Origin: a virus
Reading direction: 5' to 3' (one strand)
IMG/VR virus record: IMGVR_UViG_3300007513_001761
Coordinates: 49,249 to 113,248 of that record
DNA length: 64,000 nucleotides
Within the stretch, counting starts at the first letter, position 1; the number at the start of each line of letters is the position of its first letter. Below, piece by piece: positions 18,615 to 48,241 of this stretch. The position numbers and the translations under genes were made by a program. The notes beneath the pieces are model-generated. The model did not search any database, was not told the DNA's origin, and saw only the letters and a program-made list of their open reading frames with translations.

Positions 18615-19103
18615 TCATTTCTCAGAATGTCGATTTGTGGCCCGTTTAGGTGGTAACTCAAAATCTCTAGCTTTTTTAACCAAATCTGAGGAACTGCTAA
18701 GTTTTTGATTTCCTCCAATTCCCCACAACAACTCAACTCCAAGTTCTTCACAGACAGCCTGCTCGGGAGTATTACTACGCCCCCGATCACCGCCATTAGC
18801 AAAAAACGTTGGATTCAAGCGACGAATAGCCTCACACACCGTTCCATCGCTATCGTCTACTGAGTCCACCAGAATAACCCCCTTAATTGCATTCAAAATT
18901 TCTACCCGTTGGGTGAATTCCATAAAAACAAACCCCTTCTTACGAAACAACCAATCATCCGAATTTGTGATCACGATCACATCTCCATACTGGGCCGCGT
19001 CTCGAATCATTCGGATATGTCCAGCGTGCACAGGGTCAAATCCGCCAGAAACCATTACAGTCGGTTTCTTCTCCTCATCAAACATTCCATCAGCAATTGT
19101 CAT
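18615..19103 (-). CDS. Cytidylyl/adenylyltransferase-like protein (HxGH)
   Basis: 162 aa. The motif SGGFDPVHAGHIRMI (GxFDxxHxGH) and the late SSSDLVKKA (ISSSxI-like) identify the glycerol-3-phosphate cytidylyltransferase/HldE-C superfamily. It would attach a nucleotide to a phosphorylated sugar or alcohol. It lies 2 nt downstream of the phosphomannomutase-like gene, which suggests a two-step sugar-activation unit. Confidence 0.88.
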   Translation of the reverse strand: MTIADGMFDEEKKPTVMVSGGFDPVHAGHIRMIRDAAQYGDVIVITNSDDWLFRKKGFVFMEFTQRVEILNAIKGVILVDSVDDSDGTVCEAIRRLNPTFFANGGDRGRSNTPEQAVCEELGVELLWGIGGNQKLSSSSDLVKKARDFELPPKRATNRHSEK

Positions 19104-19105
19104 CT

Positions 19106-19927
19106 TTATCTCCTATATTGTAAATCTTCTAAAATGTAAAAATCAATTATTTCAACTGTTTCTTCGGGGTTTCCAGTCTCAAAGGCTCTTCCTTTGGGTT
19201 TTAACAAGTTAAATATCTCATAATCATTGCCGTTAATCCCACAGCGATCTCCTACAAACCAAAAATCCCACTCATGTTCATCAAAATGATTAAGAGCGTA
19301 TGTTTTATCCCAGTTGCACGGATAAATATCAAAAGAGGTATTACCCCCAAGCTTTACAATAACATCAATTCCGAATTTTTTTAATTCTTCCTTCAAAATT
19401 TCTAAATATTTTTTACGAATCCCATAGAGTTTATCCATTGCTTTAAAATGATCGCGAGTGGATTGCTTAGCGTTTCTCCCAATTGGACACCAATTAATCA
19501 TCGATTGGCGATTTTGAACAAAATTGCCTGTCAGGGTTATATCATATTTTTCGGTAACTATTTCTCCTTGTAAAATACACACAGTGCGCATTAATTGATT
19601 AAATTCTTTGTCTCCTAGAAATTCGCGCATTGAGGCTTTAAAAATAGTTTGCATCCCCAGTGTTTCTTCTCCGACGGGGACCAAATATTCAGTTCCATTG
19701 CAGGGTAAAATGTGACAATTATCTCTAATAATTTTATTGTTTAAAGCTGGCCACAACTGTTCTTGTATGTATTCTAGTCCGGAGCCTGTGAGAAATCCAA
19801 TTTCTGCATATCTACACAATTCAGCTAAAGCTGTAATCATGGACATGGTTATGGGCTTCCTGGCTTCTGTAAGAGTTCCGTCTACATCAAAGAGAACCAG
19901 TGTGCCATGACTATTCGTGGGGGTCAT
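19106..19927 (-). CDS. Eukaryotic-type phosphomannomutase (HAD superfamily)
   Basis: 273 aa. HAD motif I is FDVDGTLTEAR (nucleophile and acid-base aspartates). The cap region contains NWCPIGRNAKQSTRD, and GGNTSFDIYPCNWDKTYAL plus FVGDRCGINGNDYEI match the Sec53/PMM2 family almost throughout. The expected reaction is mannose-6-phosphate to mannose-1-phosphate. Bacteria usually use the unrelated alpha-phosphohexomutase ManB, so this type in phage DNA is notable. It is paired with the cytidylyltransferase-like gene. Confidence 0.87.
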   Translation of the reverse strand: MTPTNSHGTLVLFDVDGTLTEARKPITMSMITALAELCRYAEIGFLTGSGLEYIQEQLWPALNNKIIRDNCHILPCNGTEYLVPVGEETLGMQTIFKASMREFLGDKEFNQLMRTVCILQGEIVTEKYDITLTGNFVQNRQSMINWCPIGRNAKQSTRDHFKAMDKLYGIRKKYLEILKEELKKFGIDVIVKLGGNTSFDIYPCNWDKTYALNHFDEHEWDFWFVGDRCGINGNDYEIFNLLKPKGRAFETGNPEETVEIIDFYILEDLQYRR

Positions 19928-22236: not shown

Positions 22237-22601
22237 TGGTGGAGGCGGCGGGAGTCGAACCCGCGTCCAAAATAATATCCAACAAAAGTCATTCACAAGT
22301 TTGTCAGCTTTACTATCACAAAACTGAAAAGATAGACAGACTTCCTACCATGCTTACTGTCCTGTTGCATCCCACCTGCTAAAAGCAGGAAACCCATTCT
22401 GATTTTTTAGCTTCGCAGGCATCTACCTGCTATCTCAAATTGGGTAAAAAGGCTTTGAGAAGCCCCTCGATTAGGCCGCTACTGCGACTGCTTCGAAGTG
22501 TGTGTTGTTATTAGCAACTATTGTTTTTGAACTGTTAAGGTCGTATCTAACCTACTTGCACTCTTTATTTTCCTTTACCTTGTCGAATCCGTTTCGCCCC
22601 C
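22237..22601 (-). ncRNA. ssrA: tmRNA, one-piece
   Basis: The 5' end GGGGGCG pairs with CGCCTCC at the 3' end, followed by A-CCA (22237-22240). Upstream of the tag the conserved 5' segment reads GGATTCGACAAGG. The T-arm GCGGG-TTCGACT-CCCGC and the AATAGTTGCTAATAAC entry to the tag match bacterial tmRNA. The resume codon is GCT at 22515 and the tag reads ANNNTHFEAVAVAA, ending in TAA at 22471. The AA end would feed ClpXP-type proteases. It releases stalled ribosomes. Its first 37 nt overlap the coding end of the 22565-22801 gene. No smpB is seen here, so host SmpB would be needed. Confidence 0.95.
22471..22515 (-). other. tmRNA tag reading frame
   Basis: Fourteen codons plus TAA: A N N N T H F E A V A V A A. 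Unlike the enterobacterial AANDENYALAA it has a basic/aromatic centre (THFE) and a VAVAA end. The tag may help identify the host lineage by comparison with chromosomal tags. Confidence 0.9.
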
Positions 22602-23449: not shown

Positions 23450-23476
23450 GGACTTTTTTAAAAAAAATTAAAGTCC
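23450..23476. terminator. AT-rich hairpin, likely bidirectional terminator
   Basis: GGACTTT pairs with AAAGTCC across an A/T-only centre. The hairpin contains the stop codon of the 23468 gene and abuts the -35 of the next promoter, so it would separate the two transcripts. Confidence 0.5.
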
Positions 23477-24292
23477 AAACTCTACTTCATCTGGCGTTGG
23501 ACCTTCGGGCACTCCCAAATCAGCTTCTGGTTCTGGTGGTGCACCCGCATCGACAGCATCTTCTTCTGCTCTAGCTGTGTCGTAGGCTTGGTTTGAAGGC
23601 TCGCTAACGGTGTCTGAAAGCTCAGCTTCAAACTTATCAAAATACAGTTTTGTGTTTGCGATCAAATAATCATAAAAGAGTTCTTGGTCTTCAGTGTTTG
23701 AGAGCAGTTCATACGAATCAATAATGGCGCTTTCAATCTTCTTAAAAGTCGAATATGCCATGTTACGGCCAGTTTCATCTTCGCTTTCTAGACCAGTTCC
23801 AAAGTCTGCGCGTGGATCTTCTGGTTCCTCATCAGCAGACTTTTCTGCGTCTGTGCGGATGTCAATAAACTTCTCATCTTCCTCATCACCGATGTCAATT
23901 TCAACTTCCTCGTCCAAGGCATCGATTTCTGCCTCTTCCTCGCCGGCCTCGTTGTTGGTTTCCACGGGAGTTAACGTGTCTACGATGGCTTTGACAATAT
24001 GAGAACGGAAAGAAGTTCTTTGTTCAATATTTGTTGTTAAGAGCTTGTAATCGTCTTCCAAAACTGGTATAATTTTCTTAAGGAGATCTTCTAGGACATT
24101 AATTCCTGTCGATTTGTTCGGTGTGGGGTTTACGTCGGAGACCTGCTTCTCGTTAATCAGTTTTGTCTCATGAGCAATGAGAGAACGGATGATATTCCGT
24201 AATTCTTTTTCCTCATTCAGTCTTTTCTGCTTGACGTGTTTAATCAATTGTCTTATATTAGATCTTAAGACTTTCTCTTCTTTTGGATTCAT
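23468..24292 (-). CDS. Acidic helical protein of unknown function
   Basis: 274 aa. Basic N-terminal helices (EKVLRSNIRQLIKHVKQKR), a central highly acidic stretch rich in E and D (about 120-175), and a proline-rich acidic tail. Low complexity and coiled-coil potential resemble scaffold or internal phage proteins. It overlaps the 817-aa gene by 4 nt. Confidence 0.6.
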   Translation of the reverse strand: MNPKEEKVLRSNIRQLIKHVKQKRLNEEKELRNIIRSLIAHETKLINEKQVSDVNPTPNKSTGINVLEDLLKKIIPVLEDDYKLLTTNIEQRTSFRSHIVKAIVDTLTPVETNNEAGEEEAEIDALDEEVEIDIGDEEDEKFIDIRTDAEKSADEEPEDPRADFGTGLESEDETGRNMAYSTFKKIESAIIDSYELLSNTEDQELFYDYLIANTKLYFDKFEAELSDTVSEPSNQAYDTARAEEDAVDAGAPPEPEADLGVPEGPTPDEVEFGL

Positions 24293-26742
24293 GTTAAAAT
24301 GCCTCTTTCAATAAATAGTTCATATACTTCGTTAACTAAGCTCATATATAAATTTTCCTGCTGGTGGCGCTTTCTTTCACCCCGTGTAGATGGGGAGCGC
24401 GTAACTAAAGGGCGATCATCGTCCTCCTCGTCATCGGTAGGACCAAGCGCAGGACCACCAGCGCCAGCCACTGCACCGCCAGCCATACAACTCGTCTCTT
24501 CTAATTGTTCGCCGCCGGCGTCAATGCCAAGAACACCCAAAACAGCCGCCACATTATCGGCACTCCCTACAAAATCTTCTAGGAGTTTAGCCGCCACTGG
24601 CGTCAATACTTGTCGCCCCCCAACATCTTCGGTTTGGCCAAGTAAAAAGCGCATATCTGACGCATGGAATTGGCGAGGTTCTTTGCCTTTTTTAACGCTA
24701 GGCATATCTTCCTTTAAATCAGCGCTTTCTAAGACGTTCATATATTCGGGAGAATGTTCAACAGGATCTACAGCGCAATTTTCGACCGGCCGCACAACAA
24801 CGCCGTCCTTAGCATATTTAGATGCCATATTGAATCGCGATGGATCATCACCCTTGGAACAAACACCCAAGATGACCTCATCTCCCGGCTCCAGAGGACC
24901 CTCGTCTCCGATAAATTCATACATAGCTGTAATTGGAGACGCGTGGTCTGAAACCTCTACTTCAACATTGTCTCCCAAGTGTTGTGTCATGATTTCCCAG
25001 ATTTTACGTGAGTCTGCTGCGGTAATCTCTCGGCCGTTCGGCAAGCTACGGCTTGCATTGACCGGATTGGAGATTAATACCACTACTTTCCCGTCTGGAT
25101 GGGAGGAAATCTCTTGGGCATACTGTTCTACCATCCCAAGATGTCCGCTGTGAGGTGGCTTGAACGCACCAGGGACCAAAGCGATAACTTTAGTGCCAGC
25201 AGGCGCTTGAATTGGGTCGGCCGCGCTAGCGTCCACTTGTTCTAACTCGTTTACAAACTCTAATTCTACTGTTTCTTTAATCTCGTGATTAATGTAGGTG
25301 TAGACCGTGTTGTATATGGCTTCTTGAGCGTCTTCCTTGCGCACGATGTCTACTAATGGTACGCCGTTCATAATATCTGCATAAACGTGATTAGGGATAC
25401 GCTTGGGAGTATGATTGTTGGTGCGCATCTCGTTCAGCCACTCTTGAGCCGTTTTTGTAACATCTCGTGTTTTGGAAATCTTAATTGTGATTTGTTTCGA
25501 CATTCCTTCGTTCATTCCGGAGCGTCTTGCTCTTCCAATGATTTGATTGGCCATGGCAAACGCTCCTGTAAGTTTATAGACCTTTCCAGAGCCGGGGGGA
25601 TATTCAAAAACAACCCCTTCTAAGGTTGAGGCTACGTTTTCGACTTTTTTGAGCTTTGCTAACTGTTTATCAATCAACTCACCCATTTTAACATCGCCCT
25701 GGTCGGATAATGCTTGTAAATGTTCAATTGATTGTTGAAGCTCTTGTTGCATCCGCAAAATTTCTTTATCATGTTCTGAAACAAAGAAACTTTGAAGGCC
25801 ACGCAAGACTTCGATGGCAAAATCGCTAATTGCGACTTCTAAAGGTTGCAAAATCGAAGCTATTACCTTTTTAGAGTTGGTTTTAGTACCCAGCTTGGAA
25901 ACAACAGCTTTTAAGTCCGGAGAAAGCCCCTTTTTCAAAGAGGAGGCTTTAATTCCCTTTTTAGCTGCCTTTTCGGGATCAAAAAGGAGCATCATCATCG
26001 AATCAGTGATATCGTCGGGTAATCCTTCTTCTCTGGCAAATTGGCGAAGATATAGCTTTACGAGATCTTTCAATGTAGCATCTACACCGAGAGGACGAGC
26101 AAATTCACGGATCTGCTCCTCAACTTCCGCTAAAGCCGTACCATCGGCCAATCTTCGCAATTCTACGATCTTGGGACCATTAATTGTCCACAATTCTTCC
26201 CCAACTGTTGCTTCAGCAGCATCAACCAGAGAAACTAGCTCATCAAAAGCTTCATCAGCCAGATCTTCGAGTCTTTTTTGCTCTTCTTTATCTTCTTTGC
26301 TTCCCACATACTTTAATCCATGCAAAACAACTTGAGGCGCCGCATAATGAATAATATTCGGATTTTCAGGATACATAATTTCCATATTTATGTACCTTTC
26401 CCCACCAGAAAAAAGATTCTGGAGGGTCTGTGGGTCTAGTCTTTTTAAAGCAGTTGTGAGCGCTCTGAAGCCGTTTGTAAAGGCAGACTCGGCGGGGTGG
26501 CCCCGCCATTTCTCGATATACTCTTCGGGAGTCATACCGCCTCGTTTGATGTCTGAGGAGTTGCGAGCGGTACGGATCAATCCCATAGAATCAACGGACA
26601 AAAACAAATTCTGCCCATCAACCTTTTCTGTAGTATTCTTTATGTCTGCGCGTGCTACCTTGCCGAGTACATCGATGATATCCTGAAAGGTGAGGTCCAA
26701 ATCTTCGGACAAGTGCGCCATATGTCCACCAAGTCCGCCCAT
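24289..26742 (-). CDS. Ligase-like nucleotidyltransferase fused to a NMNAT/cytidylyltransferase domain
   Basis: 817 aa. The N-terminal 430 residues carry the covalent nucleotidyltransferase motifs in order: TEKVDGQNLF (KxDG, lysine as AMP/GMP acceptor), YINMEIMYP, TLEGVVFEYP (EGVV, motif IV) and YKLTGAFAM (motif V). This fits an RNA ligase or related enzyme. A second catalytic domain from about 500 has VPGAFKPPHSGHLGMV (HxGH) and VVVLISNPVNASR, as in nicotinamide-nucleotide adenylyltransferases. Such a fusion could couple NAD metabolism with RNA end modification; that link is inference. The M at residue 8 is also a possible start. Confidence 0.72.
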   Translation of the reverse strand: MGGLGGHMAHLSEDLDLTFQDIIDVLGKVARADIKNTTEKVDGQNLFLSVDSMGLIRTARNSSDIKRGGMTPEEYIEKWRGHPAESAFTNGFRALTTALKRLDPQTLQNLFSGGERYINMEIMYPENPNIIHYAAPQVVLHGLKYVGSKEDKEEQKRLEDLADEAFDELVSLVDAAEATVGEELWTINGPKIVELRRLADGTALAEVEEQIREFARPLGVDATLKDLVKLYLRQFAREEGLPDDITDSMMMLLFDPEKAAKKGIKASSLKKGLSPDLKAVVSKLGTKTNSKKVIASILQPLEVAISDFAIEVLRGLQSFFVSEHDKEILRMQQELQQSIEHLQALSDQGDVKMGELIDKQLAKLKKVENVASTLEGVVFEYPPGSGKVYKLTGAFAMANQIIGRARRSGMNEGMSKQITIKISKTRDVTKTAQEWLNEMRTNNHTPKRIPNHVYADIMNGVPLVDIVRKEDAQEAIYNTVYTYINHEIKETVELEFVNELEQVDASAADPIQAPAGTKVIALVPGAFKPPHSGHLGMVEQYAQEISSHPDGKVVVLISNPVNASRSLPNGREITAADSRKIWEIMTQHLGDNVEVEVSDHASPITAMYEFIGDEGPLEPGDEVILGVCSKGDDPSRFNMASKYAKDGVVVRPVENCAVDPVEHSPEYMNVLESADLKEDMPSVKKGKEPRQFHASDMRFLLGQTEDVGGRQVLTPVAAKLLEDFVGSADNVAAVLGVLGIDAGGEQLEETSCMAGGAVAGAGGPALGPTDDEEDDDRPLVTRSPSTRGERKRHQQENLYMSLVNEVYELFIERGILT

Positions 26743-27003
26743 TTAGATTTCCTCGTTTTCATTTAATGCTTCTTCAAGAATATTCAGCTTCTCTTCCAAT
26801 AAACTTACCCTATTCTGTAAACGACGAGAGTACTTCTTAATTTCAGAGAGATGCTGTTTTGCAAGCGTAATTCTACGCTGTTCGGCCATTGATTTTGGCT
26901 TCAAATTGCTGATAATCTCCTGCAAGCCCTGAATATACGTAAAAACGTTTTGTTCAAGGTCTTCATTTAGGAGGTACTTTCGCCAGTTACCATCCAGGGA
27001 CAT
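26743..27003 (-). CDS. Small coiled-coil protein with capsid-targeting-like leader
   Basis: 86 aa. N-terminus MSLDGNWRKYLLNEDLEQ matches the W..YL.E leader found on several larger proteins here. The rest (residues 22-80) is a long amphipathic coiled coil with heptads of L/I. It may be an internal virion or prohead-core protein. It lies directly above the 817-aa gene. Confidence 0.55.
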   Translation of the reverse strand: MSLDGNWRKYLLNEDLEQNVFTYIQGLQEIISNLKPKSMAEQRRITLAKQHLSEIKKYSRRLQNRVSLLEEKLNILEEALNENEEI

Positions 27004-27006: not shown

Positions 27007-28125
27007 TTATTTGTCCTGGCTAGTTTTAGCTGCAATTGCCTTTTTGAGGGCTTCACGAACCATCGCACGAATTTGGGCTTCATTGGCGCGCCTTCCTCGA
27101 TCTTTCGGCATTCGTGTCGCGTTTTCTGGTCTATCTGCCAGACCGCCTTCTTCAAGTTCGTCGCCATCCCCACAATCGCCATTCTCGCCTTCTTCCAAGC
27201 TTTCGTGGTCTTCATCATAATCACGATCACCCTCTAGGGCTTCAAGGTGATGACGAATCGCCTTGATGTGATCTTCATCACTCATAGCGTTGTCAGAATA
27301 GTGTCTGCCTTCTTCCGCACCGGAATCTTCGCTGAGCTTGACTTCGTTTGTTTCCTCTGTCTCCTCTGTCTCACCTGTTTTATAGTGCTCATGTCCCCCC
27401 GGACCCGGAACTTCGCCAGCCTTGTGACCGACAGGGTGCTCAGCACTCTTGCCTCGGCGTTTAAATTCGTGCTTGCCGCGTTTCCATTTGCTACCTTCTT
27501 CTTCCTCAAGCTCGACTTCTTCTTTTGTGACGTTGCCTTCTTCTTCGCGCTCTGTTGGCTTGTCTTTTTCTTTTGCGCCGGGTTCAAGGGTGCCCCCTGG
27601 CCCAATTTCTTCATTCAGGTGGTCTAGATTAAAGCTAAACCCCCACTGTTCTGTTAGGAGAGTTTTAATCTCTTTATTTTTCCAATCTTTTGTAGACATC
27701 GTTTTGTTAACTCCTTTATTTAGATGTTCAAAGTAAATAGTGCTCTTGATACTGTCTTCCCAGTCTCGAAAGCACAAATTTCCCATTTCATATGCTTCAC
27801 TTTCCATATTTCTTAAATGATCGTTGTTTTGGGCGTAACCTTCGCCCATTTCGTTTTCGCCCACCTCATCGAACTGGCCATTGCAATTTTGTGTATGATG
27901 TACCAATTCGTGCGATAATGACCGCATAATATCCTTTGGATGTCGATCTTGGACGTAAATAGTTACTGATTTGGCTCCTGGATCGTAATAAGCGGTCTTT
28001 CCAAGCGGATTTTTCGCATTTTCGGCGTCATTACGCAAAAAAAGCCTTGGCGGGTCCTTAAAACCCATCTTTTCTTGCGCAAAAGGCATAAATTGCTTGA
28101 TTAGCGGTTTCAAAACGTCAATCAT
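27007..28125 (-). CDS. Metallopeptidase-like protein with acidic repetitive tail
   Basis: 372 aa. N-terminal domain (1-140) contains MRSLSHELVHHTQN (HExxH, zinc binding) and a downstream MESEAYEMG that could supply a third ligand. From about 170 onward it is low complexity, rich in E, G, K and H (EEEGSKWKRGKHEFKRR), ending in a basic helix (IRAMVREALKKAIAAK). Similar HELVHH proteins occur in marine phages. The tail suggests a virion-associated or core protein. Confidence 0.65.
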   Translation of the reverse strand: MIDVLKPLIKQFMPFAQEKMGFKDPPRLFLRNDAENAKNPLGKTAYYDPGAKSVTIYVQDRHPKDIMRSLSHELVHHTQNCNGQFDEVGENEMGEGYAQNNDHLRNMESEAYEMGNLCFRDWEDSIKSTIYFEHLNKGVNKTMSTKDWKNKEIKTLLTEQWGFSFNLDHLNEEIGPGGTLEPGAKEKDKPTEREEEGNVTKEEVELEEEEGSKWKRGKHEFKRRGKSAEHPVGHKAGEVPGPGGHEHYKTGETEETEETNEVKLSEDSGAEEGRHYSDNAMSDEDHIKAIRHHLEALEGDRDYDEDHESLEEGENGDCGDGDELEEGGLADRPENATRMPKDRGRRANEAQIRAMVREALKKAIAAKTSQDK

Positions 28126-29870: not shown

Positions 29871-30458
29871 TTAATCGTCGCGGACGTAGTTTTCATCGAT
29901 ATCGTCGGCGTATCTCACCTTTCTTGCTCTAATTTTGAGGTCGGGAAAAACATCTTTTAGTTCTTCGACGGCTGCAACGTTCTTACCCGAGTCATCAAAG
30001 AACAAAACGTCTGTCGCACCCATCTGGATACGATCATGGATCCATGACGATTTAGCATGCGGATCCGAGTCGCCTAAAAGCTCGAATGTGATCTTCGACG
30101 TATCAAAACCTATACCCTCTAAGTAATCTCGGATAGGTTCCTCTGCCTCGGGCGCCCTCGCAGTTAAGATCGCAATTTCGCGACCTTCTGTGCCCGCATT
30201 GATAGCGTTCCTTAAGATATTTGTGATTTGCTTGATTTCTCGTGGATTAATGACTTGATCAAATTCAGTAAAATCATATACATAATCTTGGCGTGGTTCA
30301 TGAGTTGCATATTCAGCCGGCGTCATTTCCAAATTTTCTCCGGCGTCTGTTGTGATATGAATCTTGGAATCAGACTTGGCCAGAGTATCATCAAAATCAA
30401 AAACGCGAAGTTTGGATTCGCGTAAATACTCTCGCCAATTTTCAAGTAGGAGTTTCAT
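29871..30458 (-). CDS. HAD hydrolase with capsid-targeting-like leader
   Basis: 195 aa from ATG at 30458, giving MKLLLENWREYLRES; a longer frame to 30581 runs through the upstream gene. HAD motif I is VFDFDDTLAKSD, motif II AILTARAPE, and motif IV FFDDSGKN, so an active phosphatase, perhaps like the phosphatase half of T4 polynucleotide kinase. The leader is nearly identical at DNA level (31 nt) to those at 31461-31491 and 32141-32171, which suggests delivery into the capsid. Confidence 0.78.
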   Translation of the reverse strand: MKLLLENWREYLRESKLRVFDFDDTLAKSDSKIHITTDAGENLEMTPAEYATHEPRQDYVYDFTEFDQVINPREIKQITNILRNAINAGTEGREIAILTARAPEAEEPIRDYLEGIGFDTSKITFELLGDSDPHAKSSWIHDRIQMGATDVLFFDDSGKNVAAVEELKDVFPDLKIRARKVRYADDIDENYVRDD

Positions 30459-30462: not shown

Positions 30463-31491
30463 CTAATTTGTAGGACCCTTCGAATGAGTAGTGGCAGTCG
30501 CATAAACAGGCTTGTCGGCACCCCCCGTGAGGTTCCATTTCCCCCAACCGACCTCCTCGCCCTCGGCATTAAAATATGCAACCTCGGCTGAGATTTCGGT
30601 TGTGCCCAAAGCCTTTGCGAGAGCCTGTTGTGCAGTATCTGTTGCTATCTGGCCCCCGTTTGCGCCTAATTCGGCTAGCCCAGGAATGGTTATAGTAATT
30701 GATGACTGGCCAGCAGCGGTTTTTGTCAATTTGTCGATTTCAAGATCTGCAATTTCACTTGTGCTGGCAGTATCCAAAGTACCTTCAGCACCATCGGTTG
30801 CTTGGGTTATATCCAATCCCAATGTTTCTTTAGCATTATCGGCCGCTTGTGCTATTTTTTGTAATCCCACATCAGCAGATTGGTTCAAAGTATTAGCAAC
30901 TTGCCCAAGTTTTTGTTTCCACTGTGGTACCACCTTTTCTGCAGTTTCTGGTGTAAAATCTTGGGACACCTGTGCCACTCCGTCTGCAACCTCCGGGTCA
31001 ATCGTCGACAGCGCGCTGGCGAGATCCGGCAATCCTTCGGGACTCCCACCGCTGGCCATGGCTTGAGACATCGCTGTTGTGGCGGCAGCAAGAGCTAGTC
31101 CCCTTAGTGTGAATTTAATGGCTTTTGCAATTGCTGGATTCTGCTTCTCGAATGCCTTAAGTTTCTTCATAACATTGATTACAGGACCAACTGCCTTACC
31201 TTTCAGTTTTTGAAGGGCCATATACGCTTGGGTTGACGCTTTTATAATAGAATCGTCAATTGCTGAATCTGTTGTTTGTTCTTTGAGGTTTGCAAACATA
31301 TAATCGATTGATTGTTCCCAGCTTTCTAAAAATCTGATTGTGTCTTCATTCGATTCGGATAGTGTGTTGATCGCCTCGTAGAATGATGTTTTGGATACAT
31401 CATTGGCTTCAAAAAGATACAAACTTCCGTAAATATCCGACACTTGTTCCTGCAAGAGATACTTTCGCCAATTTTCAAGTAGGAGTTTCAT
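30463..31491 (-). CDS. Leader-tagged protein of unknown function
   Basis: 342 aa. Leader MKLLLENWRKYLLQEQ, then helices, a hydrophobic stretch (FTLRGLALAAATTAM, about 125-145), an alanine/threonine-rich middle and a C-terminal beta-rich part (VAYFNAEGEEVGWGKW). No catalytic motif found. A packaged, membrane-active or structural protein is possible. Confidence 0.65.
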   Translation of the reverse strand: MKLLLENWRKYLLQEQVSDIYGSLYLFEANDVSKTSFYEAINTLSESNEDTIRFLESWEQSIDYMFANLKEQTTDSAIDDSIIKASTQAYMALQKLKGKAVGPVINVMKKLKAFEKQNPAIAKAIKFTLRGLALAAATTAMSQAMASGGSPEGLPDLASALSTIDPEVADGVAQVSQDFTPETAEKVVPQWKQKLGQVANTLNQSADVGLQKIAQAADNAKETLGLDITQATDGAEGTLDTASTSEIADLEIDKLTKTAAGQSSITITIPGLAELGANGGQIATDTAQQALAKALGTTEISAEVAYFNAEGEEVGWGKWNLTGGADKPVYATATTHSKGPTN

Positions 31492-32171
31492 AATTTATTC
31501 TCCATAGGAGTTAAAACTTTTGGGTTTACCACAAAAACTTGTTCATATCCCTGATGAAAATCTTTTTTATTCCAAACAATATCATATTCCAACTCACGAA
31601 CTCTATTAATTTGTTCCTCATTATATCCAATCGAATCCATAGAAATCATAGCAACAGGCCCTATACTGAATTTTAAATCACTTAAATCCATCCATTTAGC
31701 GCCTTGAGAGATTTTAAAAGAGTTTAACTCTCCATGCATTGACGATAAATTCTTGTTTGCTGAGAGATATAAGGGAGTTAAATCTCCTTCTATCTTTCCA
31801 CCATGATACCAAGTTTCTTGGTTTTCATTTATAGTCCTCACTAATTCAGGATTCAACACAACAATCGAGGGTTCTTCTCCGTTGGGTTCTATAACTTTAA
31901 CAATATCATATCCTTTAAACATTTCTTGTGGCTGCCAAATTTCTTGAAACTCTTGCCACCAAAAAACCTTGGGATAAACATTTGCTTGAGACAAATCAAT
32001 TTCAACTTCAGATACTTGCCCATCTTTATGTTGTGCTGCATATTTTTCAGCATATGTTTTATCTTTTGAATAGAACGTTCCAATGCGAGTAGGTAAGAAG
32101 TCCTTACCGCCTCCGTGATAATATACTTCCTCTTTCAAATACTCTCGCCAATTTTCAAGTATAAGTTTCAT
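31488..32171 (-). CDS. Possible ADP-ribosyltransferase with capsid-targeting-like leader
   Basis: 227 aa from ATG at 32171 (MKLILENWREYLKEE). Directly after the leader, VYYHGGGKDFLP and FYSKDKTYAEKYAAQ, then VSEVEIDLSQANVYP, resemble the H-Y-(E/Q) layout of ART-fold toxins: YHG, a tyrosine-rich helix, and a later acidic strand. A second WYHGGKIEGD.TPLYLSANK repeat starts at about residue 123. T4 Alt is an injected ADP-ribosyltransferase with a capsid-targeting leader, so the analogy is strong, but the assignment needs a structure search. Confidence 0.5.
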   Translation of the reverse strand: MKLILENWREYLKEEVYYHGGGKDFLPTRIGTFYSKDKTYAEKYAAQHKDGQVSEVEIDLSQANVYPKVFWWQEFQEIWQPQEMFKGYDIVKVIEPNGEEPSIVVLNPELVRTINENQETWYHGGKIEGDLTPLYLSANKNLSSMHGELNSFKISQGAKWMDLSDLKFSIGPVAMISMDSIGYNEEQINRVRELEYDIVWNKKDFHQGYEQVFVVNPKVLTPMENKL

Positions 32172-32821: not shown

Positions 32822-33206
32822 ATCGTTCTCTCACTTTGTCGGCTAATGGAATAGGTTCTCCATCACCGTCTACTCTTATATAGGTAATTTCTGTCTCACA
32901 AACCGCTTTTTGTGTTCCATTATATGGGCTATGCCTACGAGCCTCCAGCCGGATACACACAGAGGTCGTCCCAACGCCGCACACTTCCCCGTAAATTTTG
33001 ATTAGATGTCCAGGTCTCACTGGCTTTTTGAAGGTGGTCTCAGACATCTTGAGGGTCACCATGCGCGGTGTATCGCAGCACTGGGCCGCATATGCACCAC
33101 CGGCTTCGTCTAGCCAACTGAGCATGACTCCTCCGAAGAGATTGCCATGGACTCCGATGTTCTGCCCCTTGCAGATGTGGGTTGAAATCAGTTCCATCTC
33201 ATCCAT
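32787..33206 (-). CDS. Hotdog acyl-CoA thioesterase
   Basis: 139 aa. GVHGNLFGGVMLSWLDEAGG is the signature of the YciA/ACOT group (GxxGNxFGGxxxxWxD, catalytic aspartate). FKKPVRPGHLIKIYGEV is the second hotdog motif. It hydrolyses acyl-CoA; in a phage this is an unusual metabolic gene. It overlaps the 872-aa gene by 8 nt. Confidence 0.88.
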   Translation of the reverse strand: MDEMELISTHICKGQNIGVHGNLFGGVMLSWLDEAGGAYAAQCCDTPRMVTLKMSETTFKKPVRPGHLIKIYGEVCGVGTTSVCIRLEARRHSPYNGTQKAVCETEITYIRVDGDGEPIPLADKVRERYGNRRKDETSG

Positions 33207-35817
33207 TCAACGCAGCGAGCAAACGCTCGACTTTCAATAACTGAGTCTCTTCATTTTTGTAGCTTTCAGCATAACCACCAGCGCCAGAACCCACTTGTGT
33301 TCCACTAAGGGGGATTTTCTCCTGAAGCATGTCCCGAAAAACCTCGTTAGCAACTCGATTAATTTCGTCTTGATCGTCCCAAACCTCTACAAGGTTGCGT
33401 AAAACTGCGGCTTGTGCGTCAGAACTCTCCTCGTGTACCGAAAACATAACATTAAGCTCTTCGCTTTCACCTTCGGTACCATGAATGCCGACAAGGTCAA
33501 TATCTAAGGGCATTTCTGGGTAGTGTTCCATTTTTGTGTTTTTGAATGCTGGTGCTGTCATTCGTCGTCTAATCTCAAGCCAGTAATTGCGATCTGCGAA
33601 AATCTGAGCGGCTTGTTCTTCTGTGGCACCCAAATCAGCATACCACACTTCTGGGTGGGCTGTGAAATTGATAAATTCGAATTCATCCATTTCATAACCT
33701 TCTTCTGCGTGGGTTTCCCAATGATACAAATCCAGATTGTCATTCACTACATCGTTTCCTAAGTGCATCACACCACCGCCTTTCATTGCGCCTTCGCGCT
33801 TAAAGAAGTTCGTTAAAAGAAACTTGATAGGTTCGCGTTTTTCGTCAACTTCGGCATCAACCGCCTCACAAAAATCTTCATAGTCTTCTGGAGCATAGGC
33901 ATATTCTTGACCACCCCTACCTAAAAGCTTGCTTGGTTCAACATCAATTCGTAAATAGTTTCGCGCCTGCCCTCCAGCGCCCGGAGTCCGACGCATCTGG
34001 TTGGGATAATCTGCCTTAACCCACGGAAAGCCATATTCTTGCAATTGTTCTAGCGCATAACCAATTACCTCAATGCCAGGCCATATTTTCCATTCATCAT
34101 CATCCCAGGTTATAATGATGTCAGCCTCACATGCTATATACACGCCATCACCACCATCATCAAGAGCAGTAGCTTCAACTGAGGTGACTGCCATCATTTC
34201 ATTAACGCGTTCTGATATTGCGTTACATTCGGCTTGATAGCGTTCCAGCAATCCACTCACTAGGTTTGAATCAAGCTCGTCTTCTGTGGTTTCATCGCGC
34301 TTGGGTGTCCCGGAGACTTGTGCTTTTTTGCCGAACAGTGCTGCCACTAAACTAGAAATAGGGGTGTCTTCGTAAGAACCTCCAAATTTAATGAAGTTGC
34401 TAAGATCGATTGTTCCAAATTGCCATGGTTCATCGCCCCATTTATCACCGTAAGCGCGACTAGTATCTCTGGGTGCGTCTTCTAGCTGTTTGGCTTGATT
34501 TTCTTGAGCCCAAGTCATTACGCGTTTGCGGAATCCGGGTATTGCCGCTCCGTAAACCCGGCTTTCGGGTACCGCTAGTTGCACGCCGTCATAGGGATTA
34601 AATTCCTTCTCGCCGGCGCGCTTGATACGCAAAAAGAGCGCACGCAACTCTTCCTTGCTCAAATGATCCGGAAGATCATCGAGTTTGCCGTACTTGGCTA
34701 GCAAAGACTCTTGCTCCTCGGCGCTGTAGTAACGTACTTGTCGTATACGCAAACGAGAAACAGGATTAATCCAGCCATTATCGTAATGACTTCGCGTGTC
34801 ATCAAAAAAGACCTCATCTTCTTGAAATTCGCGGCTGTCAACAATTTGGTCTAAGGTTACATCTTTGCCGTAGTTCTCTAAAATGTTTTCTGTTTTCGCA
34901 ACATATGCGACGGCGCCGTGTCCATGAGCTTCGGCCACTGCACATTTATAATAGGAGTCACCACCGCCGCGCGATGGAGGAGAATGACAAGAAGTAATAT
35001 CCTCAAAGTCACTCATCCGTAAAATATCGATAGGATTGCGAGTGATAATAATAGAATATTGATTTCCGCTCGCCTTGTCAAGATTCTTTTTAATATAATC
35101 AGCATTTTCTTGCCAATAACGCGCCAACTCCTGAATAGCTTTAGTTGACGCCAACTCTCGGGGAATTCCACCCCTGACTTGGGCGCCCATCATGTCAATG
35201 TAAGATCCTAATCTATAATAATTTTTTAATTCTTCTTCACTTAATGCTGCCTCGATCTCTGTACCGGTAAATCCAGTAACAGTGTTCGGGGTCTTCTCTT
35301 CTATTTTTTTTCTTAAAACATCATATTTGATGCGATAATCTATCATTTTGGATAAAAACTTACCAATTTTCATCTTAATTTTCTTGCTTTTGTGGGACAT
35401 TCCACGACCCAAATTCATAATCGTGTTTGTCATTCCATCGGGACTTAAGTCAACCAATTGGCGTTCACCTTCAATTGTGCCTTTTTCCCAATCAACGGTG
35501 TAGCCCAGATCGTCCCATAATCTTATAAACCTTCCTAGCTCTGTACCGGCATCCAAGGTGGGAAAATCAAGAATTAAGCGCATTTTGCCATCGAAAATCT
35601 TATCGAATGCCATGTCTTCGCTTGGCATGTCATCAATGGCCGTTCGAATGTGCTCTATTTCATCTTCCGAGATTTCTCTAAGTAATCTGTCTTTCTTTTC
35701 CAGCTTGATGATTTGTTTTTTGTATAATTCTTTACTTTCTTCGTCTGCGGGCGGCGTTCCTTGTCCAAAACCACCCTCAGTAAGAAATTTCTTCCATGTA
35801 TTATTAAAAGTTCTCAT
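33199..35817 (-). CDS. Large leader-tagged protein of unknown function
   Basis: 872 aa. Leader MRTFNNTWKKFLTEGG. A region at about 257-300 reads IITRNPIDILRMSDFED, then ITSCHSPPSRGGG and CAVAEAHGHGAVAYVA, a Cys/His-containing stretch recurring in large phage proteins that I cannot name. The C-terminal third is acidic. Length and leader suggest an internal virion protein delivered with the DNA. Confidence 0.7.
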   Translation of the reverse strand: MRTFNNTWKKFLTEGGFGQGTPPADEESKELYKKQIIKLEKKDRLLREISEDEIEHIRTAIDDMPSEDMAFDKIFDGKMRLILDFPTLDAGTELGRFIRLWDDLGYTVDWEKGTIEGERQLVDLSPDGMTNTIMNLGRGMSHKSKKIKMKIGKFLSKMIDYRIKYDVLRKKIEEKTPNTVTGFTGTEIEAALSEEELKNYYRLGSYIDMMGAQVRGGIPRELASTKAIQELARYWQENADYIKKNLDKASGNQYSIIITRNPIDILRMSDFEDITSCHSPPSRGGGDSYYKCAVAEAHGHGAVAYVAKTENILENYGKDVTLDQIVDSREFQEDEVFFDDTRSHYDNGWINPVSRLRIRQVRYYSAEEQESLLAKYGKLDDLPDHLSKEELRALFLRIKRAGEKEFNPYDGVQLAVPESRVYGAAIPGFRKRVMTWAQENQAKQLEDAPRDTSRAYGDKWGDEPWQFGTIDLSNFIKFGGSYEDTPISSLVAALFGKKAQVSGTPKRDETTEDELDSNLVSGLLERYQAECNAISERVNEMMAVTSVEATALDDGGDGVYIACEADIIITWDDDEWKIWPGIEVIGYALEQLQEYGFPWVKADYPNQMRRTPGAGGQARNYLRIDVEPSKLLGRGGQEYAYAPEDYEDFCEAVDAEVDEKREPIKFLLTNFFKREGAMKGGGVMHLGNDVVNDNLDLYHWETHAEEGYEMDEFEFINFTAHPEVWYADLGATEEQAAQIFADRNYWLEIRRRMTAPAFKNTKMEHYPEMPLDIDLVGIHGTEGESEELNVMFSVHEESSDAQAAVLRNLVEVWDDQDEINRVANEVFRDMLQEKIPLSGTQVGSGAGGYAESYKNEETQLLKVERLLAALNG

Positions 35818-35963
35818 AATTTATCCATCCATTCGTACAGTGCCACAACCATCACAACCTGGAAAACACAAAATGTTAAATACAACACGCATGCTTTCAA
35901 ATCTCCATAATAATCAGTCTCGTCAATCCAGAATTCTCTCCAAATATGGTGAAACCTAATCAT
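35814..35963 (-). CDS. Small membrane protein, 49 aa
   Basis: MIRFHHIWREFWIDETDYYG precedes one transmembrane helix (VLYLTFCVFQVVMVVALY). The stop overlaps the ATG of the 872-aa gene (ATGA) and the start overlaps the NUDIX gene by 8 nt, so it is a tightly nested gene. Confidence 0.55.
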   Translation of the reverse strand: MIRFHHIWREFWIDETDYYGDLKACVLYLTFCVFQVVMVVALYEWMDKL

Positions 35964-36435
35964 CTTTTACATTTTTTAATGCCTTGTCTAATAAATAGAC
36001 TGGAAATGTTCTTAATTCGAGAGCTTTTTCGCTTTTTATTTCCTCAATTGTTGCCCATTTGTGATCTGAATGTTCAATAATTCCTGTTTTTGGGTTTTTA
36101 ACAAACTTTACATCACCGCTCCACTGCGTAGTGACGTAATAATATTTGTCTGCGTCATCAGTTTGTATTTTATCAACGTATTTTAAATTTGTTAAGGAAG
36201 AGTCAAGCCCAGTTTCTTCTTGTAGTTCTCTTAGGGCCCCAGCCTCAATAGAATTATCGTCATCGTCTATGTGACCACCGGGCAAATCCCAATATCCTTG
36301 TTTAGAATCTTCGCCAGGCGAACGTTTAATTACAAGAATCTTCATATCTTCGTCTATACAAACGATTGAAGCTATGGATTTACGTTCTTTTTTATTTTCT
36401 TTAAGATAAGTGGTCCATGTAGTCGAATAACTCAT
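35956..36435 (-). CDS. NUDIX hydrolase with capsid-targeting-like leader
   Basis: 159 aa. The Nudix box reads GGHIDDDDNSIEAGALRELQEETGL, i.e. Gx5Ex7REUxEExGU with a two-residue insertion. N-terminus MSYSTTWTTYLKENKK fits the leader series. It cleaves nucleoside-diphosphate-linked compounds such as NADH, ADP-ribose or RNA caps. The leader hints that the enzyme enters the capsid. Confidence 0.85.
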   Translation of the reverse strand: MSYSTTWTTYLKENKKERKSIASIVCIDEDMKILVIKRSPGEDSKQGYWDLPGGHIDDDDNSIEAGALRELQEETGLDSSLTNLKYVDKIQTDDADKYYYVTTQWSGDVKFVKNPKTGIIEHSDHKWATIEEIKSEKALELRTFPVYLLDKALKNVKDD

Positions 36436-42248: not shown

Positions 42249-42521
42249 CTATGCGCGGTTCACCAATCTTAGGAACCTGGCGCTATTAATTCTCGCTTTT
42301 TCCTGGTATATGTTTGTATCCCTAAACCAATACACTAATATGTTAGGGGTACCATTTTTATTTGTGCTCTCTCGCACTTCTAATACAATCCCATACGGCT
42401 GCGGGATCGTATACTTATTGATATCGTTGTCTTCTCCGAGTAACGGATCCCCTATACTATACGCTCTATACGTTCTCGTTACTAGGTCTCCGACCTTGAA
42501 TTTCTTCTTCTTGATGCTCAT
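42249..42521 (-). CDS. GDLV-type small SH3-like protein
   Basis: 90 aa. KKKFKVGDLVTRTYRAYS, QPYGIVLEVRE, ILVYWFRDT and the C-terminal ARFLRLVNRA place it firmly in the family. It overlaps the 56-aa zinc ribbon gene by 56 nt. Confidence 0.7.
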   Translation of the reverse strand: MSIKKKKFKVGDLVTRTYRAYSIGDPLLGEDNDINKYTIPQPYGIVLEVRESTNKNGTPNILVYWFRDTNIYQEKARINSARFLRLVNRA

Positions 42522-42636
42522 GTTTGTATAGGTATCTGTTCTCGACCTCTGTATTAAGTAGTCTCTCGCACTCCGGACATCTCGCCGGCAATTCCCTCAC
42601 TGTGCCTGTGCGGCAGTGTGCGCATGTGTAGCTCAT
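42466..42636 (-). CDS. Small zinc-ribbon protein, 56 aa
   Basis: MSYTCAHCRTGTV and RCPECERLL: two CxxC pairs forming a ribbon. Good ribosome-binding site (GGAGGG, 5 nt before ATG) and a promoter 24 nt upstream make it the first gene of its operon. Confidence 0.72.
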   Translation of the reverse strand: MSYTCAHCRTGTVRELPARCPECERLLNTEVENRYLYKHEHQEEEIQGRRPSNENV

Positions 42637-42659
42637 GATACCCTCCTTAGTATGTATCC

Positions 42660-42688
42660 ATCATACCACAAAATGCGGGGGTGTGCAA
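42660..42688 (-). promoter_or_regulatory. Sigma70-type promoter
   Basis: Minus strand TTGCAC (42683-42688), 17 nt, TATGAT (42660-42665), 24 nt ahead of the zinc-ribbon gene. It lacks the upstream doublet found on promoters at 45-58 kb. Confidence 0.65.
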
Positions 42689-42891
42689 GTCCTAGTTTTC
42701 AGTTTTTTATAATCTGAAATTTTTAGGCGCGTATCGAGAACGGGCCATACCACGGCATGGCACGGTGCGTCTATGCAGGGACATAGATCCCGGAGGGGAG
42801 GGGGAGGGGGGTACTACCGCATAGCTGACGTTGCAAGCGCATTACTAGCGATGTTAAGTGAGTGTCAAGTGTTACGGTTGTAAAGTATATG
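42689..42891. other. Noncoding boundary with G-rich tract
   Basis: No gene of either strand is convincing. It holds a 20-base G-rich run interrupted by single A (42792-42811, plus strand) that could form a quadruplex, a GCCAT...ATGGC hairpin near 42742-42759, and, on the minus strand, a TTGACA (42863-42868) with a poor -10. It divides the AT-rich first half from the GC-richer second half. Confidence 0.5.
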
Positions 42892-43023
42892 TCATTTGTT
42901 ACTGTATACGTTGTTATACAATACTCTTATATACACTAACGCAATGATAGTACCCCAGAATGTAATGTTAGTTGGTAACTGTAATAGCTTTTTAATATAT
43001 CTTTTTGTATTACTCTCGGACAT
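42892..43023 (-). CDS. Small membrane protein, 43 aa
   Basis: MSESNTKRYIKKLLQLP leads into one transmembrane helix (ITFWGTIIALVYIRVLY). AGGAAA precedes the ATG. Reasonable but unsupported by homology. Confidence 0.45.
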   Translation of the reverse strand: MSESNTKRYIKKLLQLPTNITFWGTIIALVYIRVLYNNVYSNK

Positions 43024-43145
43024 TTTCCTACTCTCCCTCAATGTATATAGTGTAACTCTCGCACACACGGCCCCATCGCAACGCTGTCACAAAAAAGCGC
43101 GAAAGAAAAAGGCGTGAGATTACAGCTACTTAGTTAACGTTCGCC

Positions 43146-43271
43146 TTAAGGGGAGACGATTAGTTCTGCTGTTGGTATGCCAATGGTGAACGACAGCACA
43201 GCCGTGGCCACTAAGACCGCACACAAGACCAACGCACCAACGCCGTCTACGATTGTATCGGTATCACGCAT
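43146..43271 (-). CDS. Small membrane protein, 41 aa
   Basis: MRDTDTIVDGVGALVLCAVLV continues as a single long transmembrane helix. AAAGGAG lies 6 nt before the ATG. Unknown role. Confidence 0.55.
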   Translation of the reverse strand: MRDTDTIVDGVGALVLCAVLVATAVLSFTIGIPTAELIVSP

Positions 43272-43483
43272 AGTGATTCTCCTTTATAGTATATGTTTTG
43301 ATAGGGTGAAAGCTCATACGGTAGCGTATACATAGTTATACGGACAGTAAAAGACTTGACAAAAGATTGCGCTTGACATGCGGTGGGTATATGTATATGG
43401 CCCCCTCGCACAACTCCCACAATACTATTACAAATATAATCACATAACAAACGCAATCCCTTTATGTACTTCGGGCTATTCAT
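43247..43483 (-). CDS. Doubtful 78-aa frame
   Basis: Starts in an ATGA overlap with the 51-aa gene and runs 25 nt into the 41-aa gene, positions typical of real genes here, but the protein (MNSPKYIKGLRLLCDYIC...) has no recognisable features and covers likely leader sequence. Confidence 0.25.
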   Translation of the reverse strand: MNSPKYIKGLRLLCDYICNSIVGVVRGGHIHIPTACQAQSFVKSFTVRITMYTLPYELSPYQNIYYKGESLCVIPIQS

Positions 43484-43631
43484 TACCTATATCCACTTTG
43501 TTTAATGTTGTGTTAAATGCTACTCTCACACAAAAGCCTCTACCTGTCCATTCTCTGAATGCATTAATAGCATCATCTATAGCTGTGAATGTATTGAACA
43601 GTGTACCGTTAATGAATAGCTGATGTACCAT
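43476..43631 (-). CDS. Small protein, 51 aa
   Basis: MVHQLFINGTLFNTFTAIDD followed by a helix (INAFREWTGRG) and strands. GAGAGG lies about 12 nt upstream. No family recognised. Confidence 0.5.
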   Translation of the reverse strand: MVHQLFINGTLFNTFTAIDDAINAFREWTGRGFCVRVAFNTTLNKVDIGNE

Positions 43632-43639
43632 ATATATTT

Positions 43640-43912
43640 TTATACCTCTCGGAACTTTGTCTTGTTACCATGACGCCACAACTTTACAATCTCGCCGTGC
43701 GGAGTTAAAACTTTATAGCGGTGTTCTCCGTCTTCGCCCATACACAAGAACACATCGCCATCGGTGTAAATGTGTACGTTGGATCGTATTGAGTTATCAG
43801 TAGATGTATTCGCTAGCGCGCCGTACATGGTTCGCATCCACTTCTCGTGTTTGTTCTTTTGTAACCCTTGCAACATATACAAGTTGCCAAGTTTCATCTG
43901 TAGTCTATTCAT
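43640..43912 (-). CDS. Small basic protein, KOW-like end
   Basis: 90 aa from ATG at 43912, which overlaps the stop of the 33-aa frame as ATGA. Helical basic N-terminus; C-terminal strands YTDGDVFLCMGEDGEHRYKVL and GEIVKLWRHGNKTKF form a small barrel-like unit. Confidence 0.6.
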   Translation of the reverse strand: MNRLQMKLGNLYMLQGLQKNKHEKWMRTMYGALANTSTDNSIRSNVHIYTDGDVFLCMGEDGEHRYKVLTPHGEIVKLWRHGNKTKFREV

Positions 43913-44010
43913 AACGTTGCCTTTATTAAGTTGCCTGCGAATGTTACAATCTCTACTCTGTACTCCCAAAGTACGATTGTAATCGCGGCTGTGATTAGTC
44001 TGTCTACCAT
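43909..44010 (-). CDS. Very small protein, 33 aa
   Basis: MVDRLITAAITIVLWEYRVE and on; GGGAG precedes the ATG and the stop overlaps the next start (ATGA). Possibly a membrane or leader peptide. Confidence 0.4.
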   Translation of the reverse strand: MVDRLITAAITIVLWEYRVEIVTFAGNLIKATL

Positions 44011-44011
44011 T

Positions 44012-44224
44012 TTATTCTCCCTTTTGTACTCTCATATGTTTTAGTAATGACTTGTCGAACAGTCGAGGTTGACTGTCACCAACTAACAATACTTTGTGAT
44101 TCTCTATTACAACTCCATCGGTGCGGTTGATCCGATTGATGCCCAGATAGATACCTGTGCGTCGGTTAATGTCTCGGCAATGGCCATTGATGTAATCAAG
44201 TTTGAATAGTTCACCGGGTTTCAT
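44012..44224 (-). CDS. GEL-type SH3-like array protein
   Basis: 70 aa. MKPGELFKLDYINGH, TGIYLGINR and KVLLVGDSQPRLFDKSLL follow the array pattern with GEL instead of GDL. It begins with the 14-nt overlap (44211-44224) shared with the neighbour. Confidence 0.7.
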   Translation of the reverse strand: MKPGELFKLDYINGHCRDINRRTGIYLGINRINRTDGVVIENHKVLLVGDSQPRLFDKSLLKHMRVQKGE

Positions 44225-44408
44225 TAATCACCTCTAAATCTCTATCCAAAACGCGGCGAGGGGCGCGGTTGCCGATGAAGTGAACCTCAAGCAAAGTGTG
44301 CGCACCCTGGATGTGCGTCTGATCAAACTTACGCAAGATAAGGCCAACAGAACCAGCAGGTAAAAGGATTGAACTGCGCGTTATTCTCACTAAATCACCG
44401 GGCTGCAT
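44211..44408 (-). CDS. GDLV array protein
   Basis: 65 aa from MQPGDLVRITRS at 44408; a longer frame extends across the next member. AGSVGLILRKFD and LLEVHFIGNRAP fit the barrel; the end EVINETR overlaps the next start by 14 nt. Confidence 0.7.
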   Translation of the reverse strand: MQPGDLVRITRSSILLPAGSVGLILRKFDQTHIQGAHTLLEVHFIGNRAPRRVLDRDLEVINETR

Positions 44409-44592
44409 TGATAACCTCCAACCACTTAATAGGTTCCCATGATATCTCTTGATCTTGAATCCAATAAACTTTAACGCGCGGTCGTGTACTCGGATCAACA
44501 CGCAGCGCACCATTAGCGGTAGTCTGTAAAACAACACCGAGAGGCACGATCTTTTCATCACAAGGAAACTTTACCAGATCACCGACTTTCAT
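44395..44592 (-). CDS. GDLV array protein
   Basis: 65 aa: MKVGDLVKFPCDEKIVPLGVV, VKVYWIQDQ and WLEVINAAR. Strand order matches SH3/KOW domains: a first strand with GDLV, a G-V-V strand, and a W..L strand near the end. Confidence 0.75.
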   Translation of the reverse strand: MKVGDLVKFPCDEKIVPLGVVLQTTANGALRVDPSTRPRVKVYWIQDQEISWEPIKWLEVINAAR

Positions 44593-44791
44593 TTTTTACC
44601 ACCTCGATGTCGTCAACGTTTGCAATCTGAACGCAACCGTTACCCCACGCAACGAGCCAGTGGTGTACGCCCTCAAGCAGATATAGCCCCATGTCCGCGT
44701 CTGCTGGGCGAACAAGCACACCAAGTGTACCACCATAAAGGGTCCACAGCGGATCGGTCTCAATCTCTCTAACCAGATCACCGACTTTCAT
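44579..44791 (-). CDS. GDLV array protein
   Basis: 70 aa: MKVGDLVREIETD, GGTLGVLVRPADAD, HWLVAWGNG and IEVVKNESR. The last five codons and the next start share ATGAAAGTCGGTGA. Confidence 0.75.
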   Translation of the reverse strand: MKVGDLVREIETDPLWTLYGGTLGVLVRPADADMGLYLLEGVHHWLVAWGNGCVQIANVDDIEVVKNESR

Positions 44792-44969
44792 TTAGAACCT
44801 CCACATCGCACAGAGCAGCCGAACACCAGCGCCCATCGGAAAGCTGCACATCGATGATTGTGTTTGACTCTTCTTCTGCGTCAATCACCATTGCAATGCC
44901 GATCACATACTGACCGCCATGGCGTGCGTTGGCGCGCCGATAGACGCGAACCAGATCACCGACTTTCAT
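44778..44969 (-). CDS. GDLV array protein
   Basis: 63 aa: MKVGDLVRVYRRANARHGG, IGIAMVIDAEEES, DVQLSDGRWCS and DVEVLNESR. Same cassette ends. Confidence 0.75.
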   Translation of the reverse strand: MKVGDLVRVYRRANARHGGQYVIGIAMVIDAEEESNTIIDVQLSDGRWCSAALCDVEVLNESR

Positions 44970-45702: not shown

Positions 45703-45745
45703 GTAAATCCTCGGGGGGTGCGGGCAAATCTCTAACTTATGATCT

Positions 45746-45799
45746 ATTATCTCATATGCGAGCGAGAAAAGCAAGCCGATCCTGTCAAGAGAATGTCAA
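45746..45799 (-). promoter_or_regulatory. Doublet promoter 1
   Basis: TTGACATTCTCTTGACA (45783-45799), 8 nt, TTGCTT (45769-45774), 17 nt, GATAAT (45746-45751), reading on the minus strand. The doublet includes the TGA stop of the gene at 45796. Confidence 0.82.
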
Positions 45800-46503: not shown

Positions 46504-46515
46504 GGTTGTAACTCC

Positions 46516-47799: not shown

Positions 47800-47819
47800 T
47801 TCCTTACCTCACTATACTA

Positions 47820-48237: not shown

Positions 48238-48241
48238 AGGT

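Follow-up and report, generated by a model that had tools for sequence, protein, structure and literature searches.

The 64,000-nucleotide stretch analyzed here (the window) spans positions 49,249 to 113,248 of a 113-kb virus record, IMGVR_UViG_3300007513_001761, in which T4-like baseplate-type genes, recognized by eye, lie next to it. At 24289..26742, on the minus strand like all window features described below, lies a gene for an 817-amino-acid (aa) protein that joins a ligase-like nucleotidyltransferase to an adenylyltransferase of the HIGH type. As the initial annotation proposed, this is a single protein: the frame begins with ATG and is uninterrupted by stop codons, and an AlphaFold2 model of the complete chain contains two separate confident domains (pLDDT 80.5). 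The same two-domain protein is encoded by ten close relatives (L006-L015, 54-58% identity), one copy of which, in L009, is truncated by the contig end. Since these relatives share the architecture, a frame error merging two genes can be ruled out, and the fusion is confirmed as a genuine two-part protein of a bacterial virus. In Pfam, only CTP_transf_like (aa 522-580) scores above its gathering score; NCBIfam returns adenylyltransferase matches only, all sub-threshold, and PHROGs returns no match. The ligase half is covered by no Pfam, PHROG or NCBIfam model.

The ligase-like domain (aa 1-412, 25507..26742) begins MGGLGGHM and carries the KxDG, EGVV and YKLTG elements that had been noticed in the initial annotation. 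Motif I is EKVDG (aa 39-43, 26614..26628), in which Lys40 is the predicted site of adenylation. The equivalents of motifs Ia and III are Arg60 (26563..26565), 20 residues beyond this lysine, and Glu121 within NMEI (26380..26382). Motif IV is EGVV (25609..25620), starting at Glu375 (EGVVF being aa 375-379), and motif V is YKLTG (aa 389-393, 25564..25578), with Lys390. Across 53 aligned sequences, Lys40, Asp42, Gly43, Arg60, Glu121, His141, Glu375, Gly376, Lys390 and Gly393 are invariant, as are the glutamate of E-K-x-D-G and the N-terminal residues 2, 3, 6, 7 and 10, although the patterns used for scanning contained GH[ML]xH and EKxDG, so that conservation at those places is partly selected. 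This invariance rules out chance motif matches. Alignment with seven T4 Rnl2 homologues by hhalign places Lys40 opposite K35, and Arg60 opposite R55 (E 8e-4, compared with 0.41 for an unrelated HIGH profile used as a control). The spacings match as well, with 20 residues from the lysine to the arginine and 20 from Glu121 to His141, as from E99 to F119 in Rnl2. One relative also scores against Pfam RNA_ligase (9.5e-4).

Because a fold search with the whole protein returned mainly the HIGH domain, the ligase half was modeled separately (pLDDT 89.8, pTM 0.86). With VIA-align, its top match is the Naegleria RNA ligase Rnl (6vte; Z 8.8, rmsd 3.9 Å over 189 residues), followed by Trl1 (8.6), T4 Rnl2 (8.4) and T4 Rnl1 (8.4), with archaeal RNA ligases at about 7 and DNA ligases mostly at 5-7. 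The nine best Protein Data Bank (PDB) matches in Foldseek are all RNA ligases, with modest E-values (0.004-0.08). A sequence search of the PDB with the ligase profile gave nothing credible, and matches came from the fold search alone. The predicted RNA-ligase fold of the first half is thus well supported. With T4 Rnl1 and Rnl2, Naegleria Rnl and Trl1, this half shares the nucleotidyltransferase fold, a KxDG-type motif I, the arginine at K+20, the glutamate of motif III, EGxV and the first lysine of motif V. It differs from them in reading KxT rather than KxK in motif V, in an insertion of some 200 mostly alpha-helical residues (aa about 150-370) that separates motif III from motif IV, in its N-terminal GGxxGH[ML]xH, in its fusion to a HIGH domain and in matching no curated family. 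The lysine replaced by threonine corresponds to K227 of T4 Rnl2, where it is essential; it is invariant in the Rnl2 homologue alignment, whereas the threonine is nearly invariant among the relatives of the fusion. It had also been suggested that the protein could both make and use NAD. In the sense of an NAD-dependent ligase (LigA), this is unlikely and was rejected, because the NAD-binding Ia domain that defines such ligases (PMC9503650) cannot fit into the 39 residues that precede Lys40.

The second half (aa 515-743, 24514..25200) is supported as a HIGH-superfamily adenylyltransferase with a predicted PPAT/NadD/NadM fold (VIA-align Z 14.0, 12.8 and 12.5, respectively). It contains an HxGH motif in GAFKPPHSGH (aa 525-534, 25141..25170), whose histidines and glycine are invariant in ten genus members, and HASDMR (24649..24666), a counterpart of the ISSTxxR motif with an invariant distal arginine. 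Fold, HxGH and distal arginine are thus shared with NMNAT, PPAT, NadD and NadM, but the specific family models all remain below their curated cut-offs and the first histidine is lost in many relatives. Consequently, the separate HxGH domain of the initial annotation stands as a HIGH adenylyltransferase, while use of NMN is not specifically indicated, as PPAT, NadD and NadM fit about equally.

The two domains are found together well beyond the window. A search of annotated phages with tblastn identified Microcystis phage Mel-JY01, the huge phage LR756508, and LR756500. In Mel-JY01, both domains also form one chain (WWT39297, cytidylyltransferase-like), with a ligase domain 28% identical to that of the window but in reversed order, the HIGH domain being N-terminal. 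LR756508 combines ParB, HIGH and ligase domains, and LR756500 has a stand-alone ligase behind an N-terminal tag (MKFLKSYEEFLNE) of the kind described below, with the HIGH domain in the adjoining gene. Searching IMG/VR with the window sequence alone gave no matches; a profile built from four sequences (the three phage relatives and the window) recovered the family, with at least 573 relatives in viral contigs, 80 of which were used for locus-level comparisons. The family is therefore common among uncultured viruses, yet it has no curated name or model. Ligase followed by HIGH is the order in L006-L015. In most other relatives the ligase is C-terminal, behind HIGH and sometimes behind a Nudix domain, a P-loop kinase (Zeta/AAA_33) or an exonuclease, the fused partners including eight kinases, two Nudix domains and one RNase_T. 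Near stand-alone ligases, a HIGH-domain gene lies in several loci, the exceptions being L016, L017 and L078/L079. That the two are joined in both orders, or encoded as neighbors, argues that they are functionally connected and were not brought together by chance. A scan of genome contigs gave only six matches, all in metagenome-assembled contigs that are probably viral, and a bacterial origin was discarded. Separately, genes beside stand-alone ligases (L021 11378-14458; L005 7244-9205) have a further KxxG-like segment at their start (VVTEKLSGSSF in L021 and, with the lysine lost, IISENLDGSTV in L005); these may perhaps be another, partly dead nucleotidyltransferase.

These combinations bear on an explanation centered on NAD. 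In this counter-defense scenario, the HIGH domain would act as a genuine NMNAT and restore NAD consumed by host NADases; the ligase-fold domain would be accessory, either using the nucleotide or sensing it, and Nudix would regulate NAD as in NadM. The fold does resemble NadD and NadM, and the HIGH domain of LR756508 best matches the NMNAT/Nudix NadM model, at 2.3e-6 and below the cut-off. One relative, L046, joins NMNAT, Nudix and ligase in a single chain; an ADP-ribosyltransferase (ART)-like tagged protein is found in the window cassette, and phages are known to synthesize NAD with HIGH enzymes (PMC9503650). Nevertheless, no model reaches its curated cut-off and PPAT fits equally, no NadV/NAMPT gene was identified (no search was aimed at one), and the part kept in every member is the ligase domain, not HIGH. 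This explanation is regarded as unlikely.

The beginning of the ligase domain, GGxxGH[ML]xH, is a further feature of the family, and the residue before its Gly-Gly is not random. The Gly-Gly and the residue preceding it were absent from the scan patterns. Among the 80 relatives, this residue is the start methionine in 11, glutamate in 58 and an internal methionine in 11. All 58 non-methionine cases, which span 17 flank types, have [LIM] at -3, and other Gly-Gly pairs in the same proteins are preceded by glutamate in only 4 of 405 instances. In the 11 cases with internal methionine, the DNA reads close to aaggag-ttattactt-ATG, which is Shine-Dalgarno-like and well spaced, and this state requires at least four changes on the tree. 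Of the sequences seen, only LR756508 departs from this, as it lacks the Gly-Gly. In T4, the prohead protease gp21 cleaves at L/I-X-E (PMC9026906), and the junction of the Mel-JY01 protein reads IAE|GG. That [LIM]xE before Gly-Gly is a T4-type prohead-protease site is well supported as a processing pattern at the level of sequence, and the window genus arrives at the same N-terminus by starting its gene at MGG. The exposed Gly-Gly N-terminus, the most informative feature of the protein, had gone unnoticed in the initial annotation. Alternatively, Gly-Gly might serve domain folding only, with a structural glutamate before it and no processing. The invariance of residues 2, 3, 6, 7 and 10 would agree with this, but the glutamate is missing precisely where a start codon (11 genes) or an internal ATG preceded by an AAGGAG-like sequence (11) stands, and [LIM] is kept at -3 despite otherwise dissimilar flanks. 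We consider a purely structural role very improbable.

A second signal points to the virus head. In T4, the internal protein IPIII begins MKTYQEFIAE, and positions 4 and 7 of its tag matter for targeting, and 8 and 10 for processing (PMC9026906). A corresponding tag, aromatic-xx-aromatic-[LIVM]-x(1,2)-E, is found at 38 of 337 open reading frame (ORF) N-termini in the genus of the window, against 2.4 expected by shuffling (maximum 7), although some few of the 38 look accidental. Tagged proteins of known type include seven Nudix hydrolases, four HAD_SAK_1 phosphatases and one tRNA_lig_CPD protein, a cyclic phosphodiesterase of the fungal tRNA ligase type found in L007, plus the ART-like protein. 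Peptidase_S77, the family of gp21, is present in 13 of 23 records, including the close kin L008, and short fragments are numerous among the remaining records. In L042 and L080, the ligase gene immediately precedes a run of terminase, portal, protease, scaffold and capsid-like genes, recognized by eye except for S77. Judging from these sequences, some family members are probably carried inside the virus head. The aromatic-xx-aromatic-[LI]-x-E tag and a gp21-type Peptidase_S77 are thus shared with the T4 internal protein system. The differences are that the tags here are mostly W-xx-[YF], that the cargo is enzymatic, that relatives string cargo domains in one chain, and that the ligase protein of the window is itself untagged.

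For the window protein, a neighboring gene offers a possible route. An 86-aa coiled-coil protein with the tag MSLDGNWRKYLLNE is encoded at 26743..27003, and its stop codon abuts the ligase start (TAA-ATG). Because this tagged gene directly precedes the ligase ATG and is conserved in 9 of the 11 genus loci, the arrangement suggests that the 817-aa protein could be packaged piggy-back, with the 86-aa partner as a possible adaptor. The C-terminal helix of the fusion was also considered as a second packaging signal and dropped, as it is seen only in the fusion itself.

Further upstream, several tagged genes follow. A HAD phosphatase (tag MKLLLENWREYLRE, 29871..30458) matches a PHROG for polynucleotide kinase (1e-7), and its tagged relatives include Swiss-army-knife RNA-repair HADs, among them the four HAD_SAK_1 matches. 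The tag scan also identified a 342-aa protein (MKLLLENWRKYLLQE, 30463..31491) and an 872-aa protein (MRTFNNTWKKFLTE, 33199..35817) that is conserved in the genus. Between them, at 31488..32171, lies the tagged ART-like protein, with a weak ART-PolyVal match (E 0.0017, below the gathering score). A tagged Nudix hydrolase (MSYSTTWTTYLKE, 35956..36435; PF00293, 1.3e-19) completes the series. It had been described as a neighbor of the fusion gene; it shares strand and cluster with that gene, and two sampled relatives have Nudix and ligase in one fused protein, so the association holds, but the gene is about 9 kb upstream rather than adjacent.

This Nudix protein had been given a possible role in removing NAD-like caps that the fusion protein would place on RNA 5′ ends, the HIGH domain making the group that the ligase-fold domain adds. 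The weak similarity of the Nudix protein to RppH and Nudt16, and the covalent nucleotidyltransferase fold that ligases share with capping enzymes (human RNGTT appears at low rank in the Foldseek listing), are consistent with such capping. Nevertheless, RNA ligases are the nearest structural neighbors of the first half and rank far above capping enzymes; its partners are RNA-repair enzymes, no RNA triphosphatase or cap methyltransferase was recognized among them, and we know of no domain of this kind that transfers NMN or NAD. The proposal has gained no specific support and appears highly improbable.

The ligase-fold domain might instead adenylylate a protein or small molecule after injection, as an effector of host take-over. 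To our knowledge, no covalent ligase-type domain has such activity, and the RNA-repair partners point elsewhere. The altered motif V and the large helical insert would fit an effector, as would the company of ART-like and peptidase proteins, which is typical of phage effectors according to the survey of polyvalent proteins (Iyer et al. 2017, PMC5512222). On balance, this role is distinctly improbable. The relatives do resemble the polyvalent proteins in being multidomain effectors near virion genes in the company of ParB, ART and peptidase domains: kinase, HIGH, Nudix, exonuclease, ParB and ligase domains occur among them, some immediately upstream of the terminase and capsid-like run. They differ in the ligase/HIGH/kinase/Nudix core, which the passages of the survey considered here do not describe (the survey reports that polyvalent 2H domains never associate with RNA ligases), and in a ligase junction that resembles a protease site.

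The interpretation we favor, with a probability of roughly one half, is that the fusion belongs to a set of RNA-repair enzymes, probably packaged in the head and linked to the metabolism of dinucleotides. RNA repair is the best guess because an RNA-ligase fold occurs with partners that process RNA ends. The ligase domain would adenylate itself on Lys40, pass the AMP to a 5′-phosphate RNA end and seal RNA, such as tRNA, cut by host defense nucleases, the ends having been prepared by the HAD phosphatase, cyclic phosphodiesterase, P-loop kinase and nucleotidyltransferase partners. The HIGH domain would make NAD or a similar adenine dinucleotide, perhaps refilling a pool drained by defense. A complete tmRNA gene (22237-22601; Rfam RF00023, 123 bits; tag ANNNTHFEAVAVAA) lies nearby and has counterparts at the corresponding position in L006, L007, L012, L014 and L015; its presence in six genus members, the window included, fits a theme of translation rescue.

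Delivery would follow the T4 pattern. Many relatives look like internal head proteins or cargo polyproteins that the capsid tag would bring into the prohead, where the gp21-like protease would cut [LI]xE|GG and release a ligase domain with a free N-terminal Gly-Gly; in the window genus, the MGG start would supply this N-terminus and the tagged coiled-coil partner the packaging. A bolder version, in which the set would be a new class of injected phage enzyme and the ligase would need its free Gly-Gly to be active, making activation dependent on capsid maturation, is more tentative, and we regard it as possible rather than probable. If the favored interpretation is right, phages import RNA-repair and nucleotide enzymes at injection rather than making them later, which would bear on how they outlast tRNA-cutting or NAD-draining defenses, and the prohead protease would have gained a novel function by coupling the maturation of the capsid to the release of enzymes.

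Several observations weigh against this interpretation. The absence of the second lysine from motif V could leave the ligase weak or altered. At 8.8, the fold Z score is modest, hhalign gives a probability of only 24%, and GxHH replaces HxGH in many relatives. The 817-aa protein, starting MGGLGGHM, carries no capsid tag, the tags sitting on its upstream 86-aa partner and on LR756500-type relatives; relatives with an internal start would yield an untagged ligase, so packaging of the ligase itself can only be presumed. A distant homologue of the ligase domain with EKIDG, EST35_0228 of Pseudomonas phage PA5oct (L110 6525-7865), lies within a virion gene cluster confirmed by mass spectrometry and is itself not flagged as detected. 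Moreover, the cyclic phosphodiesterase (L007) and the kinases (distant fused relatives) come from outside the window.

Two other genes adjoin this group. A putative metallopeptidase of the HExxH type (SHELVHH, 27007..28125) is kept in 11 of 11 genus loci, and in Flavobacterium phage immuto a segment similar to it is fused to a HIGH domain. On the other side, a 274-aa acidic protein (23468..24292; 7 of 11 loci) overlaps the ligase stop codon. Elsewhere in the window, a heptose-1-phosphate-adenylyltransferase-like gene (18615-19927; PHROG 5e-18) adjoins a eukaryotic-type phosphomannomutase (PF03332, 2e-36) and is kept in L006 and L014. At least eight small proteins encoded within 42249-61453 start with (K)VGDLV/I and then a G-I/L-V strand, and apparently form one expanded family. 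Between 44000 and 60000, the G+C content climbs from about 0.42 to 0.55 and few long ORFs are called. Finally, a gene at 62818-63753 has a tag-like start (MSWNEYLQVLRE) and a weak Pol-beta nucleotidyltransferase match (PF01909, 0.0028).

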